A DNA stretch of 64,000 nt. Origin: Corallium rubrum. Lineage: Eukaryota; Cnidaria; Anthozoa; Scleralcyonacea; Coralliidae. The stretch is taken from contig OZ036000.1 in the NCBI GenBank assembly GCA_964035015.1, forward strand, positions 3,406,599 through 3,470,598, in the 5' to 3' direction. Below the pieces are notes generated by a model. That model made no database searches, was not told where the DNA came from, and saw only the letters and a list, made by a program, of their open reading frames with translations. Positions 20,201-61,640 of this stretch are shown piece after piece (the stretch's first letter is position 1; every line of letters starts with the position of its first letter). Made by a program: the position numbers and the translations under genes.

Positions 20201-23200
20201 TGCCGGAGCTGGAAATTTTCTGCCGGAGCCGGAGTTTTTTTTGCCGGAGCCGGAGTTTTTTTGGCCGGAGCCGGAGGTGATACCCGAGTGTTTTAGATCT
20301 GATAAAACAGGTTATACTGTACCTTACTGTGAATGTTTTAAATAGCTTCAAAATAGCTTTCAACCCATTTGGTAATTAACCTCATAATTGGCATAGTAAG
20401 TTTGAAAAATAACGTTGTCTAAGCCAAGAAAATCAAAGCTATTAAGTTTATGTAAATCAGGAGGTTAATTTCTTTATGCACCTACCAATGTTAGGCCGGT
20501 GGGGAGGAGGCAGGGCAGGGGGGTGGGATTTGATACAAAGATAAATCCCGCGAGTAAGGAATTTGACGAGCGTAGTCCCGGGGGCTAAAATATTTGACGT
20601 ACATTGACTGCTTCCGAATTTTCGATCACTTCCACTAGAGCCTGTGTTCTTTTTGGACTTGGATCGTATTTTATATTTGAAAAGTAAGTCATTTATTTAC
20701 ATATCCTTTAATACGCTTTGCATAAAACTGAAACGAGTGGTTGACAAACGCTGTATATGTCACTAAGGGAAAATTTTAAGTACGAATGTCAAATATCATG
20801 TCTGTGTCGTCAGAGCAATTCTGTTTATATAAATCTATTTTAATATTTTAATAATCTTGTTTTTGATGCTTATTACGTAGATGAAAGCACTGAAGGTGTG
20901 GAATGCCGACAGGACAATCAGAAAAGTTATTGTAAAACTGTCTATATGAAGTTCTGATTTATAGATTTAATTCAAATCAATTGTGTTTTATTGTTTGTGG
21001 TGAACTGTGAACTGGTAGTACACATTGTATAAGTGATTAAAATTTGTTTCAATGCATTTGAGTATTTGCTCAGTGTGATGTCCCACAGGTACAATATTTG
21101 AAGTACAATGATGTTCCTGGGGTAGGGAATTTGACACAAAATTCTGTTTCAATGTCAAATCCCGCCCTCCTGCCCTGCCTCCCCCCCCTGCTGGCCTAAC
21201 ATTGATAGGTGCATAATATCAGATATAAAATCATGGACAATTGGTACTGATTTCCTTTGTGTTTTCCTCATGAATTATTAATGAGTTTTTGAAGAAAATA
21301 CCGTAATTATAATATAGTGAGAATTTTGTGAGAGTATTTTCATATATTTCTACAATGCAATAATTTAGTTTATATATACTGTAGTTTACCTTGTTTTGGT
21401 CTAATGAAATCTTGGTGAATAGTGGTATGTAAACTTGAGAAATATTGACAATGAGTCTTGTAGACATGTAAATAACTCCCATCTTTAACATTAGAACAAA
21501 GAATTATCTACATTAAATGAACCAATCAAATGGTTACCATATCAATGTACAGTCATACCATAAAATACCATCAAACTAATTTACCGCTAATATTTAATTT
21601 TAAAATGGTACTTCAAACTTCAAAGGAACACCTCACCTTATAAAACTGTGGTTCCTTAAACCACAATTTCCAATTCTTAGCATTTCGTTTGCTCTTTTCA
21701 TTTTTAATGAAGCAATTTAATCTTGGTTTTTCTTTTACTCCCACATGAAAGATTACCATAAACAGAAGGCCTATTCCAACTGTAATTAAGGCTAAAAGCT
21801 TGATAAAATAACATAAAATAATTATGACTACAATAAGGATATGATAACTGTAGTACGTATGTTGTGTGAGCGAGTGAGTAAATGAGTGAGGGGCCAGAGG
21901 GGTGGGTGGGTGGATGGGTGAGTGAATAAGCAAGACTATTAATAGTAATATACATTTATGTACCATAAATTCCTTATGATCCTCTGGACCAATGTGATCT
22001 GTATCTTTCAACATTCTAATGAGAATCCACATAACTACAAAAACGACAATTCCAGATCCCACAGTACAAGCATACCTATGAAGGATAGAAACTGGAATTA
22101 AATTAAGATGCTTTGCATTTTTCAGCACTTATAAATTGTAATTATTTTTAATATTGATAATATAATTGGTCTCCGATATGTACTCCAAAATGTGCAGCTC
22201 AGACAACACACGATTGTCTCATGTACAAGTTCTCTGTTTTGGCAGTATATCTAACCATAGTCAATCGAGATATGGTCTGGAAACTCAGCTAAAGTCTTTG
22301 GTCTATCTTTTTGTTCACCTTTATGCATTTTTGTGCAGGGTGCACGGTCACTGAACACATTGTATTTTAGTATAATGAACGAATTGTCCAATAGCAACGT
22401 TTCAGTTCAATCACTCAACCGTGCTATTTAAATATTAATAAACCTAAAACAAAGGTTGTGCACGGTGTAAGGTACGGTTCAACATAAAATCCCAGCTCAT
22501 TATAGGAACTTTGAAGTTTGCCGAGTTTCCAGACCATATCTCGATTGACTATGATCTAACCTTACTATATTTCGATTGTTGTTTCTACACTGCCTACGCA
22601 GCACACTGGCTTTTTAAATCTCTAAAAATTGAACTTATTTCGTGTTCCTATATTTACATATGATGTAGTACTATAGTAAGTAAGAGTTAATTACTGCATA
22701 CTTCCTGATGCACGTAATTTAGTGCAAATTTCACAAGGTTTTGTCTTCATAATGACAATTCCTTTCAATTGAATTGAATTCAGTTGGTATGGGAGATAAA
22801 GACTAGCTTACGAATAACAAAGGAAAACCACGGAAATTTGAACTACTGATAAATATCATTAAAAACTTATTTTAAAAAAATTAATATCATTTACCTTATT
22901 GCATTTAAGGTCACTTTTTCGATCTTACATTCACTTAGTTCTGGGATAAGTGCAAGATGAGATATCTGTGTCGTTGCCCAACCAAATTGAAAAATAACAA
23001 CAAATGGTACATAGTATATAAATTTAGCATACTGTTTCGTCTGTTCGGAACCCTCATCACATCCAATGCATTTTGTAAAAATAAACGGAAAACTCAAGGC
23101 GACACAACAAACTCCCACTAAATGCCATATTTTTCTTCGTCCATATTTATAATTTCCTGTTTTATCTGATTCAATGCCAACAACAGGCGTCGCTAACGCG

Positions 23201-23421
23201 TCAGCTACTTGGCCAAGGAGAAGCAGTGAACCCGCCATAACTGGACTGAATTTCACCACTTCGTGCATGTAGATAAGCAAGTAGGTGAACCAAATATTGG
23301 CGCATAAATCATTAAGAATATGACCAACACCATAACATAATCGAGTCTTCCAAGTAAGAACAACAAAATTGCCACAAAGTACTGGCGAAGGACCATCGTA
23401 TCCCCTGTTCTCGTCAGTCAT
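17263..23421 (-). CDS. MFSD12: MFSD12-like major facilitator transporter
   Basis: MFSD12 is a 12-membrane-segment transporter of lysosomes and melanosomes, linked in vertebrates to cysteine import. Exons, in transcript order: 22895-23421, 21964-22075, 21637-21798, 21390-21482, 19589-19681, 18922-18962, 18505-18634, 17540-17634, 17263-17386. Phases all close, giving 458 aa against about 480 in human. Hallmarks: [20 protein letters not shown] near the N terminus, the loop motif [30 protein letters not shown] across the first junction, [15 protein letters not shown] in the second half, and [20 protein letters not shown] near the end. The 41-nt exon at 18922 is needed to keep frame and gives [13 protein letters not shown]. 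Introns 4-6 are full of repeats. The donors are ordinary. Confidence 0.9.
18778..18869. repeat. Dispersed palindromic repeat copy
   Basis: A single ~92-bp member of the TTAACCCTTTATCGCCCA family, in MFSD12 intron 6. Confidence 0.75.
19797..20273. mobile_element. CCGGAG-rich hAT-like element nested in copy X
   Basis: Starts TAGTGCTGTGC and is flanked by the 8-bp repeat GAGGTGAT (19789-19796 and 20274-20281). Both ends are rich in CCGGAGC motifs. The expected right terminus GCACAGCACTA is missing, so the right end may be worn. A sister copy is at 43833-44349. Confidence 0.6.
20474..21218. mobile_element. Inverted-repeat element nested in copy X
   Basis: Ends are inverted copies over about 55 bp (GCACCTACCAATGTTAGGCC at the left; right end the complement with few changes). 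They include G-rich AGGCAGGGCAGG blocks and TGGGATTTGA. No transposase frame. Confidence 0.65.
22256..22553. mobile_element. 298-bp TIR element with 7-bp TSD
   Basis: Ends are CATAGTCAATCGAG and its exact complement, with inverted arms of about 33 bp. Flanked by ATCTAAC at 22249-22255 and 22554-22560. The host sequence is a dispersed repeat whose uninterrupted form lies at about 29060-29125, where ATCTAAC occurs once. Lies in MFSD12 intron 1. Confidence 0.85.
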
Positions 23422-24951
23422 ATTCCTGATATTAGTTTATTTTCACTCTCTGAACCAGTAAGTTTTGTTGAGCTACGTTGATTGAAGATTGTCCTTCCTT
23501 TGATAGGTTTCTCTTTGATCCTGTCATATTATTCAAAGTTTAACAACATTGCACTTAAATGGACTATACGCGATCATGTGTTGCAAATAAGATCATATGA
23601 TTGTGACATGACTGATGACTCACGAGACAAATTACGCAACCTCCCCTTGATTAGGACAATGCCCGTCTGCTGTGCGCACTGTACTACTTGTCATTGTCTA
23701 AACTCTACAGATTAATAACTCCGCACCGCACAAAAGAAAATGAGCCGTCTGTTGTGCGCGCTAGACATGAAAGAAAAAGCCTGCATTTTTTTCCCCTGGT
23801 AACGCCTCCTCGGCGAAGTTGTTGCCCACCCATCCAAGTTTGCCCAAGTCAGGGGGTGTCACATGGGCCACAGACTGCACAGAGTTGGCTGCAGTATAAA
23901 GCCCTAATGAGAGTAATCAAACAAGAACGTAGTCTCGGTTGCGGCTGCGAGGGAGACTAACGAGAACGCAGGTTATCGCAAGTTGCTTGTCAGTTCGCCC
24001 AGTCACGAATTTCTGTGGCGGTCGTTCGAACACCCAAATTAACAAAATAAAGGTTTCATGAGTGTTTTAAACAAGTTTTAACTTTGTCACGATACATGAT
24101 ATTTTCGGGAAATTATTCAGAGCGGTTGGCTGAGATAGCGGACAACTTGCGATGACTTGCGTTCTCGTTTGGCTTAACGGAGAGTTATTAATTTCCCGTT
24201 ACTGAGAAAACCCACTGCACAAATTAGAGAAAGCCCGAATAAATGTCGCGTCATTAGCCTTCCCTTCTCCTTTTTTAGGTTCCTCACTGGTATATAATTC
24301 TATTTCAATCAGCTATTCATGCAAATATACAACGCGAGGGGCAAATTAAATCACTCCTGAAAAAGTGCACGTGATCAAAAAGTCGTGTGATTTCTTTCAT
24401 GATTTTCTGATTTTTCTCGTGATTTTTTAGTTTTTTCATGATTTTTTTGTGATTTTTCTGAAGGTGTACGTGATTTAAATCAGTGATTTGCCCCTTGGGC
24501 TTGAAAATAGCTGGAGGCAAAAAACAATGAACATCGCGGACAAAGGCTATGTGCACACGGTAACGTTAACTTTCCAAGCGTTTTCGTATTGTTTACTGTT
24601 CTCAAGGGAATCGAGAACAATCTGCTCATTACTTGAAACAATACGAAAACGCTTGGAAACGTTACTGCGCATGTGCACATAGTCAAAGAACCATAAAATG
24701 CGCACTAACGACTGTCGCCGTCTTTTTGAGAGTCGACGAACTGGCACCTTTCAAAAATAAAGTGAAAATGTTACATGGTAGCATGGCACAGCTGGAATTG
24801 CAAATGTACACCCCATGCAATGCTTATATATACTCTTATTTATTTTTCTGTGAGTTTGAGAGTTGAGGAAAATCATCTTGACGCTTCAGTGAATTGTTTG
24901 ATGAGTTATTTCTAAGGTGATTAATCATACTTACTACAATGACGATCATAA
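23422..24951. other. 5' flank of MFSD12-like gene, foldbacks, no gene
   Basis: Should include the MFSD12 promoter and 5' UTR. Foldback arms are seen at about 23958-24172 (CGAGAACGCAGGTTATCGC against its diverged complement), about 24335-24500 (GGGGCAAAT ... ATTTGCCCC, around many TGATTTTT runs), and 24548-24681 (next entry). No coding region supported. Confidence 0.4.
24548..24681. mobile_element. Foldback element
   Basis: Opens CTATGTGCACACGGTAACGT and closes in its near-complement, with central blocks CCAAGCGTTTTCGTATTGTT inverted. About 134 bp, no coding content. Confidence 0.7.
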
Positions 24952-38938: not shown

Positions 38939-55282
<16,344 letters not shown>

Positions 55283-56606: not shown

Positions 56607-56757
56607 CACTTATTTACTGGTACCTCAGGAAAACAGTGTGTTTTGTGGCCCCTCGACTGCTCGTTGTTGCCCTCGGCTTTGCCTCGGGAAACAACAGCAG
56701 TCTCAGGCCACAAAAGTCAAAACACACTGTTTCCTTCGGCACCAGTAAATAAGTGTT
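56607..56757. mobile_element. Short foldback element
   Basis: ACACTTATTTACTGGTACC-type tip and complement at the right, with AAACAGTGTGTTTTG inverted. The loop CCTCGGCTTTGCCTCGG is itself palindromic. Confidence 0.8.
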
Positions 56758-57039
56758 TATTAATATAGTATGTATGTCAATTATTAACCAATTTCTATCC
56801 ACTGTAGATACCAATATTAATCCACTAATACTTAGGCCCACCAAGGGCAAATCACTCCCAAAAACCTCATACACAAAAAATACACAAAAATCTTAAAGCT
56901 GCAAAAATCTCAAAAAAATCCCAACTACTAAGTTTACGAATCACTGCATCAAATAATGGGTCCAGTTTTCCATGAGTTATGTTTGAGAATATATAGTTCT
57001 AGTTTTCTGTCAGATATGAAGTTCTAATTTTCTAAACAG

Positions 57040-58164
57040 TTAATTAAAGACATCAACTGGGCTGTTCTTTATCGACTTCACAATGGTCAGAGCAAGATTA
57101 TCACATGTATCCGCCAAGGGGATCAACATGTACTTCCCTTTACATTCAGGATCCTCGTCCAATATCTCTGTGAGTTTATTGAAAAATATCTTCACTTGGT
57201 TAAGACGTTCCTCTTCTGAAAGGACTGCGGTTTTGAGCTTTGACATATCATAGAGTGACATGAGTGGTGTGGCATACTCCAACAGGCAATAATATATCCC
57301 CTCGTATTTCTTTTCATCAACATGGTCATCCTCGGTTATGGTGATTTTATACACGGTGTGGTGATATTGTCGTTTCTGGATACCAGCCCTATTGACAGCC
57401 AGTACTGGCAAGTTCCTATGTGGTTCAATACGAGGATCACATTTATCCAATGTCTCATAGCAATAACAATTCTTTGGTAACAAGATCAACAACTTGAGTG
57501 GACAGAGGTTTTCTCTCAATTCTTGTGTAGACCTTTGGACATGTTTTTCGAGATGTGGAAGGACCAGTTTCAGGTAGCCAAAGTAATAGCTCCAAGCCAA
57601 GCCATCAGCCAGATTTTTGTTGTGTCTTTCATTCATTTCATCCCGCTCGACATCAGCTGGAACTTTAATGCCCGCTAGATAACCAATGATTGGAACTATG
57701 GTAATATTTTGAAAGAGCAGGAGAAAATATCTTTCCTCTTCCCCAGAAATAACATCTCTTATCTCCTGGTAGAAATGATAGGCCAAAAAGACAAACAACC
57801 CAAAGAAGAACGCCATAACAGTGTCGCCTATGTAGGGATTTTGAAACGAGAAGACTTTGTAAACAACTTTCCTCCAGTTGCCTTCATATCTCTCTCGCTT
57901 GTGGTAAACCTCTTCAGCCAACAGACAACTTCTTCGAAGTAATTCACCAAGAAACATGGCAAGCACAGACATACACAATAGGTACATGGCCACATCGAAG
58001 CTTTCGTTCTTCTCCAAATACGCCAGATAACCAAAGAGGGTTGATGAAGAAACGAGAAGGATTACTGTACCACAATAGCTGGCTCTGTTCTTCCGACGAA
58101 CTAGTAATGGACCGAAGCCGTTATTCATTTCTTTGGAAAAGATGAATGCTTCACTGTACAACAA
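57040..58164 (-). CDS. STING1: STING-like cyclic-dinucleotide receptor, intronless
   Basis: STING is an ER-membrane receptor for cyclic dinucleotides made by cGAS-like enzymes and triggers innate immune output and autophagy. The 374-aa frame has four membrane segments at about 31-50, 58-76, 112-132 and 146-166. The ligand-binding domain follows, with GLAWSYYFGYLKLVLP (188-203), RAGIQKRQY (259-267) and LEYATPL (295-301). Residues matching the human ligand contacts are kept: Ser162/Tyr163/Tyr167 (here 192, 193, 197), Arg238/Tyr240 (265, 267), Glu260/Thr263 (296, 299). The protein stops about 14 residues after the last helix, so the vertebrate TBK1/IRF3-recruiting tail is absent. Met13 is an alternative start. 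The gene is a single exon, unlike most neighbours, and is tail to tail with EFL1. Confidence 0.93.
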   Translation of the reverse strand: MLYSEAFIFSKEMNNGFGPLLVRRKNRASYCGTVILLVSSSTLFGYLAYLEKNESFDVAMYLLCMSVLAMFLGELLRRSCLLAEEVYHKRERYEGNWRKVVYKVFSFQNPYIGDTVMAFFFGLFVFLAYHFYQEIRDVISGEEERYFLLLFQNITIVPIIGYLAGIKVPADVERDEMNERHNKNLADGLAWSYYFGYLKLVLPHLEKHVQRSTQELRENLCPLKLLILLPKNCYCYETLDKCDPRIEPHRNLPVLAVNRAGIQKRQYHHTVYKITITEDDHVDEKKYEGIYYCLLEYATPLMSLYDMSKLKTAVLSEEERLNQVKIFFNKLTEILDEDPECKGKYMLIPLADTCDNLALTIVKSIKNSPVDVFN

Positions 58165-58298: not shown

Positions 58299-58771
58299 TA
58301 CCGCCATTTGCAGTTGAGCTTGCAGCTTGCGTTAATTAAGACGTTGTTTCATCGTTTGAAACTCTGCGTTCATTGGACCGCAACGTAGTGTTTCCAAGGG
58401 CACAACGTGACGGAGCTTTGACAGGGTTTCAATTAGTGATTAATTTGTTATTCGCGATCGTGGCGAGTAGATATTATAAAAAAATGTCTAGTAAACGATT
58501 TAGCAAGGCCAGACGGACAAATAATGTTGGGAAAGCTCTATCATGACCTAAGGAGAAGCATTATTGATAAGATATCGGAAAACGGTAGAGAAAGAGCAAC
58601 GGCGACCGTTATAACAAATTAATCACTAATTGAAACCCTGTCAAAGCTCCGTAGCAACGTCACGTTGTGCCCTTGGAAACACTACGTTGCGGTCCAATGA
58701 ACGCAGAGTTTCAAACGATGAAACAACGTCTTAATTAACGCAAGCTGCAAGCTCAACTGCAAATGGCGGTA
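58299..58771. mobile_element. TIR element with ~155-bp arms upstream of STING
   Basis: Left arm 58299-58450 and right arm 58614-58771 are almost identical in inverted orientation (TACCGCCATTTGCAGTTGAG tip). The left arm lacks 6 bp (GTTGCTA region) present in the right. About 160 bp of unique centre with no full transposase. Confidence 0.9.
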
Positions 58772-58937: not shown

Positions 58938-59662
58938 GTAAACGAAAACAAATCGCAGCTTTTTATAAAAGTAAATTTAACTTATAGTTCCAGCGAGTTA
59001 TTAGGACTGCAAGACAGGCTAATAAAACTGTCACTTCAATTAGCGGAAGCGACGAACGAATCGTCTACGGTCTCGCTCTACTGGTTTGAGTAGGGGTAGT
59101 ACTTCTAAACTCATATATAATAATTCACGACAAAAATTCAAAAGAAATTAAACTTTAATTATGTCTTTGTAAATAGCTTGCGCCACCGCAGACGTCGACT
59201 GCGCATGGTGTACCCGCATACAATGCTCCCATACGAGATTAGATTAGCAATTTATAACATACTTCGCACCAGGGCGTCCATAAGATATCTTATAGACGCC
59301 CTGCTTCGCACACAATACACAATTTATAGGTAATTTTATTGACAGCCACCTTATCCTGTGCCTGCTACCCAGGCTATGGCGACAGGCTTTGAGAGAGGCA
59401 AGTCTTGTACATATTCAGTAATATATTATATACATTAATTAATCACTCATTGTGTAGTTCCAAAATATATCCATAATCTCCCTCCCGATCGCACTTGAAA
59501 ATCCCAGGGGAATGGCGTGTTTGACACCAAGGTGGGTCAATGGTTGCAGTTATTTGCAACACACTTTCACCAACTGAATGTTTGGAAGTTCGATTGTACT
59601 AGCTTATGGCTAGAGACCTAATAAGCCTCATTTTTCGAGTTAAAATAAAGCTTTATTGTATT
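58938..59662. other. Intergenic, no gene seen
   Basis: Contains a near-perfect 34-bp palindrome at 59271-59304 (CAGGGCGTC ... GACGCCCTG). Ends in AAAATAAAGCTTTATTGTATT, which resembles the 3' tail of a LINE just before the pentamer array. Confidence 0.4.
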
Positions 59663-60328
59663 GTACTGTACTGTACTGTACTGTACTGTACTGTACTGTA
59701 CTGTACTGTACTGTACTGTACTGTACTGTACTGTACTGTACTGTACTGTACTGTACTGTACTGTACTGTACTGTACTGTACTGTACTGTACTGTACTGTA
59801 CTGTACTGTACTGTACTGTACTGTACTGTACTGTACTGTACTGTACTGTACTGTACTGTACTGTACTGTACTGTACTGTACTGTACTGTACTGTACTGTA
59901 CTGTACTGTACTGTACTGTACTGTACTGTACTGTACTGTACTGTACTGTACTGTACTGTACTGTACTGTACTGTACTGTACTGTACTGTACTGTACTGTA
60001 CTGTACTGTACTGTACTGTACTGTACTGTACTGTACTGTACTGTACTGTACTGTACTGTACTGTACTGTACTGTACTGTACTGTACTGTACTGTACTGTA
60101 CTGTACTGTACTGTACTGTACTGTACTGTACTGTACTGTACTGTACTGTACTGTACTGTACTGTACTGTACTGTACTGTACTGTACTGTACTGTACTGTA
60201 CTGTACTGTACTGTACTGTACTGTACTGTACTGTACTGTACTGTACTGTACTGTACTGTACTGTACTGTGCTGTGCTGTGCTGTGCTGTGCTGTGCTGTA
60301 CTGTACTGTACTGTACTGTACTGTACTG
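59663..60328. repeat. (CTGTA)n array
   Basis: About 133 copies of the pentamer, near-perfect, with a run of CTGTG variants at about 60268-60298. All frames stay open (LYCTV or QYSTV periods). Confidence 0.95.
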
Positions 60329-61640
60329 TGAAGAAATATATAGGTCCAGCAATTTTGTGTGAAATCGACCCTGATCAATTTGGAGCGATACCAAAATCCT
60401 CAACTACATTGGCAGTTATTTCTATGTTTCACAAATGGGCGCAGTCAACCGACGGAACCGGCGCTGCTGTCAGAGTCGTACTTTTTGATTATAAAAAGGC
60501 CTTTGACCTCATTGACCACCGTATACTTGTTGAAAAGATTTCTAGTTTACCTATTCCAGGAGCAATAGCACGTTGGACAATTGATTTTTTGATGAACCGA
60601 AAGCAGAGAGTCAAACTTTCCAATGATTGCCTCTCTGAGTGGGGAGAAGTTCCATCAGGCGTCCCCCAGGGCACAAAACTTGGGCCTTGGTTGTTTCTTC
60701 TAATGATAAACGATCTCAAAATCTCTGATGTTTCTACATGGAAGTATGTCGACGATACGACCGTTGCTGAAGTCGTTCATAAAGGGGAAAGTAGTCACGC
60801 TCAGGACGCTGTTGTCACTGTAGAAGAGTGGTCAAGTGTTAATAGGCTCCACCTTAATGCTGATAAATGTAAAGAACTTATAATTGACTTTAAGTCCAGT
60901 AAACAGAACTTTAATCCTGTGACGGTTAATGGGAAAAATCTACCCGTTGTTAAAAATGCCAAGATATTAGGCCTCGTCATTTCAAGTACCCTTCAATGGA
61001 ATGAGCACATCAACGAAATTATAAAGAAGGCAAATAAGCGCTTTTACTTTATTATATTATTAAAGCGTGCTAATGTAAGTGCTAAAGACATTGTGAATTT
61101 TTATTGTACAGTTATCAGGCCTATCTTGGAATATTGCGCACAGGTTTTTCATCATTCACTCCCGAGGTTCTTGTCTGATGATCTTGAAGTTGTACAGAAA
61201 CGTGCGTTAAAAATCATCTCGCCTGGAGAATCATATAATCAAATATTAGATCATTTTAATATCCCCACATTGTTTCAAAGACGTGAAGAAATGTGTTCCA
61301 AACTTTTTAACAATATTATTAACGATCCATCGCATAAACTATACCATTTATTACCTCCTAAACATGAGGCTATGCACGATCTTAGAAGTAACAGAATGTT
61401 TAATATGTTTCAAATAAATACGAACAGATTTCAAAATACATTTATTCCTGCCATGTGCAATAGTTTAGTTTAGTTTACATTAGTTTAGTTTAAATTCTAT
61501 TGTTAATGTTTCTTATACATTTGTAAATATTGTAAAGTATGTATCACTTTTAATTAATTAACATTTTAAACTGTAAATCACGCAATTCAGCCATATGTGC
61601 TGCGATGTGAATTTTTAATTAAACTATCTATCTATCTATC
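60329..61640 (+). mobile_element. 5'-truncated LINE with an intact polymerase frame
   Basis: From 60331 to the stop at 61473 there is no frameshift or stop. Motifs in order: DQFGAIPKSSTTLAV, LFDYKKAFDLIDHRIL, GVPQGTKLGPWLFLLMINDL, the catalytic box YVDD, LGLVISSTLQWNEH, VIRPILEYCAQVFHH. The 5' part (endonuclease, polymerase fingers) is missing. The 3' UTR (61474-61620) ends in (TCTA)n, which passes straight into the CTGTA array. Jockey/CR1-type by appearance. The absence of damage suggests a recent insertion. Confidence 0.9.

Follow-up and report, generated by a model that had tools for sequence, protein, structure and literature searches.

The window analysed here, a stretch of 64,000 nucleotides of Corallium rubrum DNA, carries a real and intact gene for an animal STING immune receptor. 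Its coding sequence is one uninterrupted frame of 362 codons in a single exon on the minus strand (58128..57040), with an ATG at 58128 and a TAA at 57042-57040. The product of this gene is a tailless STING; it probably acts in the ER as the receptor for 2'3'-linked signals from cGLR enzymes and belongs to an old family of single-exon genes.

The identity of the gene is established by two Pfam domains that lie on the minus strand and score well above their cut-offs. STING_TM (PF23417) matches residues 50-170 at profile positions 3-109 of 109 (57619..57981; E 1.4e-10, 42 bits against a cut-off of 28.1), and STING_LBD (PF15009), which is also a fold match, spans residues 172-350 at profile positions 1-175 of 182 (57079..57615; E 4.7e-51, 173.2 bits against a cut-off of 27). 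With these E-values the resemblance is far beyond chance. In a phmmer search of the PDB, all 60 sequences listed of the 76 matched are STING/TMEM173 or fusions (best E 6e-46); the best match is from a coral, followed by an anemone, in a database that is poor in invertebrate STINGs. An initial annotation had placed a STING-like gene here, and both domains bear it out; of the span that it gave, 57040..58164, the lower end is right, but the upper end falls on a TTG codon that lies 36 nt 5' of the first in-frame ATG at 58128. A tblastn search of the window revealed no second STING copy, and two pattern-based scans of viral contigs detected no viral STING relatives.

Structure prediction agrees with this assignment for the ligand-binding domain. 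The AlphaFold2 model from the single sequence is poor (mean pLDDT 39.9) and contains, at low confidence, four membrane-type helices (residues 15-40, 44-77, 98-123 and 129-152), which together with the PF23417 score uphold the four-helix membrane part that the initial annotation had recognised. When the five STING sequences of the genome were aligned as input the mean pLDDT rose to 64.2 (60-89 in blocks within residues 171-350), and the last predicted helix of the domain spans residues 345-355. A Foldseek search of the PDB with an E limit of 10 returned 298 matches, and the best 50 of these 298 are all STING. The TM-score on the target (TMt) reaches 0.87 for LBD-only chains of coral Sp-STING1 (8efm_A) and 0.83 for those of the anemone (5cfo_A); full-length STING chains give 0.47-0.52 with an rmsd of 13-16, which reflects the uncertain membrane part of the model.

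The ligand pocket is well kept. Alignment equates Ser180, Tyr185, Arg247, Arg253, Tyr255, Glu284 and Thr287 of the protein with human S162, Y167, R232, R238, Y240, E260 and T263, so that all seven key residues are identical; the initial annotation had likewise described the ligand-binding residues as kept. Over the 24 positions compared, identity to the human protein extends to 12 (G79, S162, Y163, G166, Y167, R232, R238, Y240, E260, Y261, T263 and P264). Differences near the lid and pocket include human S241 (His256 in the window protein), N242 (His257), Q266 (Met290) and T267 (Ser291). In the membrane part, the positions of human C88 and C91, which we take to be palmitoylated cysteines, are occupied by Val92 (codon at 57853-57855) and Phe95; the four paralogues described below and human STING have Cys at the former position, and a palmitoylation-type site is therefore missing in the window copy only.

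The choice of ligand may be read from two positions of the pocket. Passages of PMC9980059 associate Ser189 of Sp-STING1, together with a threonine, with 2'3'-linked ligands, and Asn178 and Ser275 of Sp-STING3 with 3'3'-linked ones; by our alignment count the second stacking tyrosine of Sp-STING3 is residue 252, given there as Y253, and the other residues agree. The presence of Ser180 and Thr287 at the positions of Asn178 and Ser275 in Sp-STING3 predicts that the window STING favours 2'3'-linked ligands. Published reviews disagree on the ligand in such animals: the product of Nematostella cGAS is named as 3'3'-cGAMP in one review passage and as 2'3'-cGAMP in another.

The protein ends 12 residues past the LBD match (residue 350 of 362), and a motif scan found neither the TBK1 motif PxPLRxD nor an IRF3-type [LVI]xIS in it; a vertebrate-type CTT (PxPLRxD, pLxIS) is lacking. 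The frame thus does stop right after the binding domain, as the initial annotation had observed, and its corollary that output cannot use the TBK1/IRF3 tail stands as well, leaving either another route or a tail-independent contact. STING without a CTT is described as the normal state in invertebrates and choanoflagellates in passages of PMC8204762, PMC8592570 and PMC9621439, so the absence of the tail is to be expected here and this central point is not new. The same passages report tailless STINGs of Nematostella and choanoflagellates to be competent for autophagy or transcriptional responses, and support output through NF-kB or autophagy. An oyster STING, as cited in PMC8218723, reportedly binds TBK1 without a CTT, by which a TBK1 output of the window STING is also possible. 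Short-motif scans detected [PSAT]x[QE]E tetrapeptides at residues 128, 200 and 304 and at least six LIR-type [WFY]xx[LIV] tetrapeptides, matches so short that they have little meaning.

The window gene is one member of a family. A profile search with PF15009 of the whole genome (474 Mb in 312 contigs, read exon by exon) produced five STING_LBD matches from five candidates, all without internal stops and in open frames of 379-553 codons. In addition to the window gene these comprise a divergently oriented pair on contig C28 (L002:1414-2637 and L003:1003-2238, start codons about 4.3 kb apart), each a single frame with a C-terminal extension, and a tandem pair on contig C22 (L004:817-2097 and L005:895-2307, about 20 kb apart). 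Over long alignments, any two of the paralogues share 25-35% of their residues, L004 and L005 excepted at 66%, and in a tree of ten LBDs the window gene, L002 and L003 are unplaced with respect to the cnidarian and vertebrate clades. In L002 the key pocket residues are intact, with Phe for Tyr163, and in L003 most of them are present, R232 being replaced by Lys and T263 by Ile. The stretch beyond the LBD match measures 28 residues in L002 and 61 in L003, compared with 12 in the window protein; the 54 of L004 and 124 of L005 include residues that still belong to the LBD, as their match reaches only to profile position 162 of 182. Neither PxPLRxD nor the TRAF6-type PxExx[DEFYW] occurs in any of the five proteins, and the [LVI]xIS tetrapeptides of L002, L004 and L005 are located in the linker before the LBD.

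Each of the five loci has a near-whole LBD in one open coding frame, and none is split by introns. The unsplit coding exon is therefore shared and probably old, which suggests that the single-exon STING coding region is ancient in this lineage; a 5'-UTR intron is possible in each of the five genes. Of the two explanations that the initial annotation had offered for the missing introns, an ancient single-exon locus is thereby the better supported. The other, that the window copy is a retrogene formed by reverse transcription and insertion of a spliced STING mRNA, was set aside as the main reading and is quite unlikely. In its favour, the unsplit frame lies beside a split EFL1 gene (Pfam-supported frames at 52240-52701 and 53770-54729), and a frame for an RVT_1 reverse transcriptase is found inside the window at 48376-49800. 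Against it, the five matches include no intron-bearing parent, the 1.5 kb downstream of the stop contain no A-run of eight or more that could be a poly(A) remnant, and about 70% of the aligned residues differ between the window protein and each of the paralogues, so that no recent parent is apparent. The search does see split genes, given that the Rel gene of the same genome appears as three exon-sized matches, and an intron-split STING would be expected to show up as partial matches, although a much-split gene with short LBD exons could escape a search made with PF15009 alone. A retroposition in the distant past, at the origin of the family as a whole, is possible. As to the neighbours, the description of them as multi-exon holds for EFL1, split over at least two frames, and CCDC115 is indeed the exception, with one open frame that matches profile positions 2-143 of 143; an MFS frame at 22894-23436 covers no more than the first third of its profile. 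Our literature searches returned no papers on intronless, single-exon, paralogous, duplicated or retrogene STING, and none on the STING lid in invertebrate paralogues with cGLR; in the literature examined, which was seen in part, no paper dealt with introns of cnidarian STING or cGAS or with intronless invertebrate STING, and the word "intronless" in PMC9438028, in the part seen, belongs to a reference title on interferon genes.

Two further alternatives concern the missing tail. That the gene continues into unseen downstream exons which supply one is highly improbable: the in-frame stop sits after the last predicted LBD helix, the first AATAAA 3' of the stop is about 280 nt away (56756..56761, minus strand; a poly(A) role is presumed), and the frames of the four paralogues likewise end within the same exon. 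The window STING might instead be a sponge or dominant negative that binds ligand without signalling and leaves this to the tailed L002 and L003, a reading that is unlikely, if less so than that of a retrogene. Two traits that set the window protein apart from the other four could favour it, the near absence of residues after the LBD and the Val at the C88 position, as could the presence of a second intact STING. The initial annotation had named such a gene, paired with lack of expression, as grounds for abandoning its view, and one was found in L002; L003 is also an intact frame. Opposed to a purely regulatory role are the reported competence of the tailless Nematostella and choanoflagellate proteins (in the passages of PMC8204762, PMC8592570 and PMC9621439 cited above) and the four paralogue tails, which have neither PxPLRxD nor PxExx[DEFYW], so that possession of a tail is no predictor of signalling in this genome.

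The preferred reading is thus that of a tailless but functional receptor. We infer that the gene is expressed, and that its product would reside as a dimer in the ER membrane by means of its four helices and would have as its ligand a 2'3'-linked cyclic dinucleotide from one of the cGLR enzymes of the genome. On binding, the lid would close and the protein would oligomerise and leave the ER; output without the TBK1/IRF3 tail would most likely consist of NF-kB-type transcription together with LC3/autophagy or ion leak. The unsplit coding exon would then derive from a single-exon gene from which the whole STING family of the animal descends, and not from a recent retrocopy. The Val at the C88 position, the identity at only 12 of the 24 human positions and the low confidence of the membrane model count against this reading.

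The tandem pair on C22 departs furthest from a conventional receptor. Both proteins score as STING (STING_LBD 71.6 and 61.6 bits, STING_TM 46.1 and 45.1 bits for L004 and L005), and both have lost S162, G166, Y167, R232 and R238 in human numbering while keeping Y163, Y240 and E260. Their lid region is about ten residues shorter, seen as an 11-column gap in one alignment and as gaps of 3, 6 and 1 residues relative to chicken STING, the exact place of the gap being dependent on the alignment. For L004 against L005, a comparison of two sequences only, the membrane part (157 codons) gives a pN/pS of 0.48 (bootstrap interval 0.28-0.87) and the LBD (159 codons) one of 1.03 (0.73-1.55), and the contrast between the parts has p = 0.023 (one-sided, by shuffling codons between them). 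A value near 1 in the LBD is compatible with diversifying or relaxed selection while the frame has been kept open. It may tentatively be proposed, as a minority view, that the pair is a new kind of STING, with a constrained membrane part, a shortened lid, a dismantled pocket and a former ligand domain that is diversifying, and that, instead of being a cyclic-dinucleotide receptor, it would act as a decoy for pathogen factors or sense them directly, or would regulate the window STING by dimerising with it. Fragments resembling the first STING membrane helix lie 5' of L004 and L005 (C22, about 10394489 and 10414873; E 1.2e-7 for L005 and a weak 0.004 for L004) and are perhaps relics of further duplication. 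Between the two genes there is also a plus-strand frame (L008:618-1130) without a Pfam match that contains DVEENPGP, which we take to be a 2A-like motif.

Other components of such a pathway are encoded in the genome. The search for STING paralogues and cGAS-like genes, which had been proposed along with the initial annotation, yielded, besides the five STING loci, at least 30 matches to Mab-21 (PF03281, the cGLR family), three of these Mab-21 matches with an internal stop (L017-L046; nine on C1, seven on C12, four on C8, three each on C18 and C37, and the rest on C28, C15 and C53). A simple scan of one open frame each found the GS...EFD motif in 11 of the 30; at the other loci the motif may be in another exon, or they may encode other Mab-21 proteins. 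Many of the matches have long unsplit frames. There are six matches to the IRF DNA-binding domain and one to the IRF-3 association domain, and three matches to the Rel homology domain, which cluster in some 4 kb of C49 and of which one has an internal stop, are read as exons of one gene. Passages of PMC9980059 give 42 cGLRs and seven STINGs for Stylophora pistillata, and the Mab-21, IRF and Rel matches indicate that the present genome has the parts for a similar cGLR-STING network. Elsewhere in the assembly, a contig of 97 kb (C129, L047) contains one cox1 that is free of stops under the standard code, together with several cox1 pieces mostly with stops, and may be mitochondrial DNA of a symbiont or contaminant.

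The DNA upstream of the window gene is repetitive. A 473-bp foldback MITE (58299..58771), with inverted arms of 153 and 161 nt (58299-58451 and 58611-58771) that are 95% identical and with TA at both ends, lies 171 bp upstream of the STING ATG. It has 40 full or near-full-length matches in the genome, its own included, out of 211 candidates, with identities of 93-100%. The palindrome is therefore a common dispersed MITE and not part of the gene proper, and the idea that it is a duplicated STING promoter was dropped; it may nonetheless influence the promoter of the gene. The motif TACCGCCATTTGCA, with one mismatch allowed, occurs three times in the window and 80 kb of further sequence, once at either end of the palindrome and once some 60 bp upstream of L003, which is itself adjoined by a separate foldback repeat. 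Further features of the window include the reverse transcriptase frame mentioned above (plus strand; RVT_1, E 1.3e-24), a second plus-strand frame at about 60400-61473 that looks RT-like by eye, a long microsatellite of TACAG type that lies upstream of the STING gene (about 59650-60360), and other short-unit arrays elsewhere.

Considered by itself, the window gene is an ordinary invertebrate STING of the tailless type, in a genome whose cGLR-STING network is expanded. The five-member family is of more use, as one genome combines a tailless STING with its pocket complete, two STINGs that have a tail but no TBK1/IRF3 motifs, and two whose pocket is dismantled and whose ligand domain changes fast, and it would permit direct tests of the need for tail and pocket outside vertebrates.

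Comparison with known systems places the window gene among animal STINGs. Even the divergent L004 and L005 score far better as animal STING_LBD than as prokaryotic STING (PF20300; E 0.0083 and 1.8e-4, 16.6 and 22 bits, below the cut-off of 27.1), and they also have STING_TM. With vertebrate STING (TMEM173) the window protein has in common the membrane part, the LBD and the key pocket residues; the vertebrate protein differs in having the CTT motifs and the C88/C91 cysteines, both missing here, and the human gene is presumably multi-exon. The STING of Nematostella vectensis (PDB 5cfl-5cfr) is likewise tailless by the literature seen, and its LBD has the same fold (TMt 0.83) with 39% identity over the aligned domain; published passages speak of one STING homologue in that animal, in contrast to the five loci found here. 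The nearest counterpart is S. pistillata, which is described as having, like the present genome, multiple STINGs and multiple cGLRs. Its Sp-STING1 (PDB 8efm, 8gjz; PMC9980059) is 49.1% identical to the window STING in the LBD (85 of 173 aligned residues) and has the same key pocket residues, including the 2'3'-type Ser and Thr, whereas Sp-STING3 is 45.8% identical (77 of 168); the lid hairpin loop is longer in the window STING than in Sp-STING1. The seven S. pistillata STINGs are described in a passage of PMC9980059 as 54-75% identical in their LBDs, compared with 27-41% among the five described here, except for L004 and L005 at 54%.
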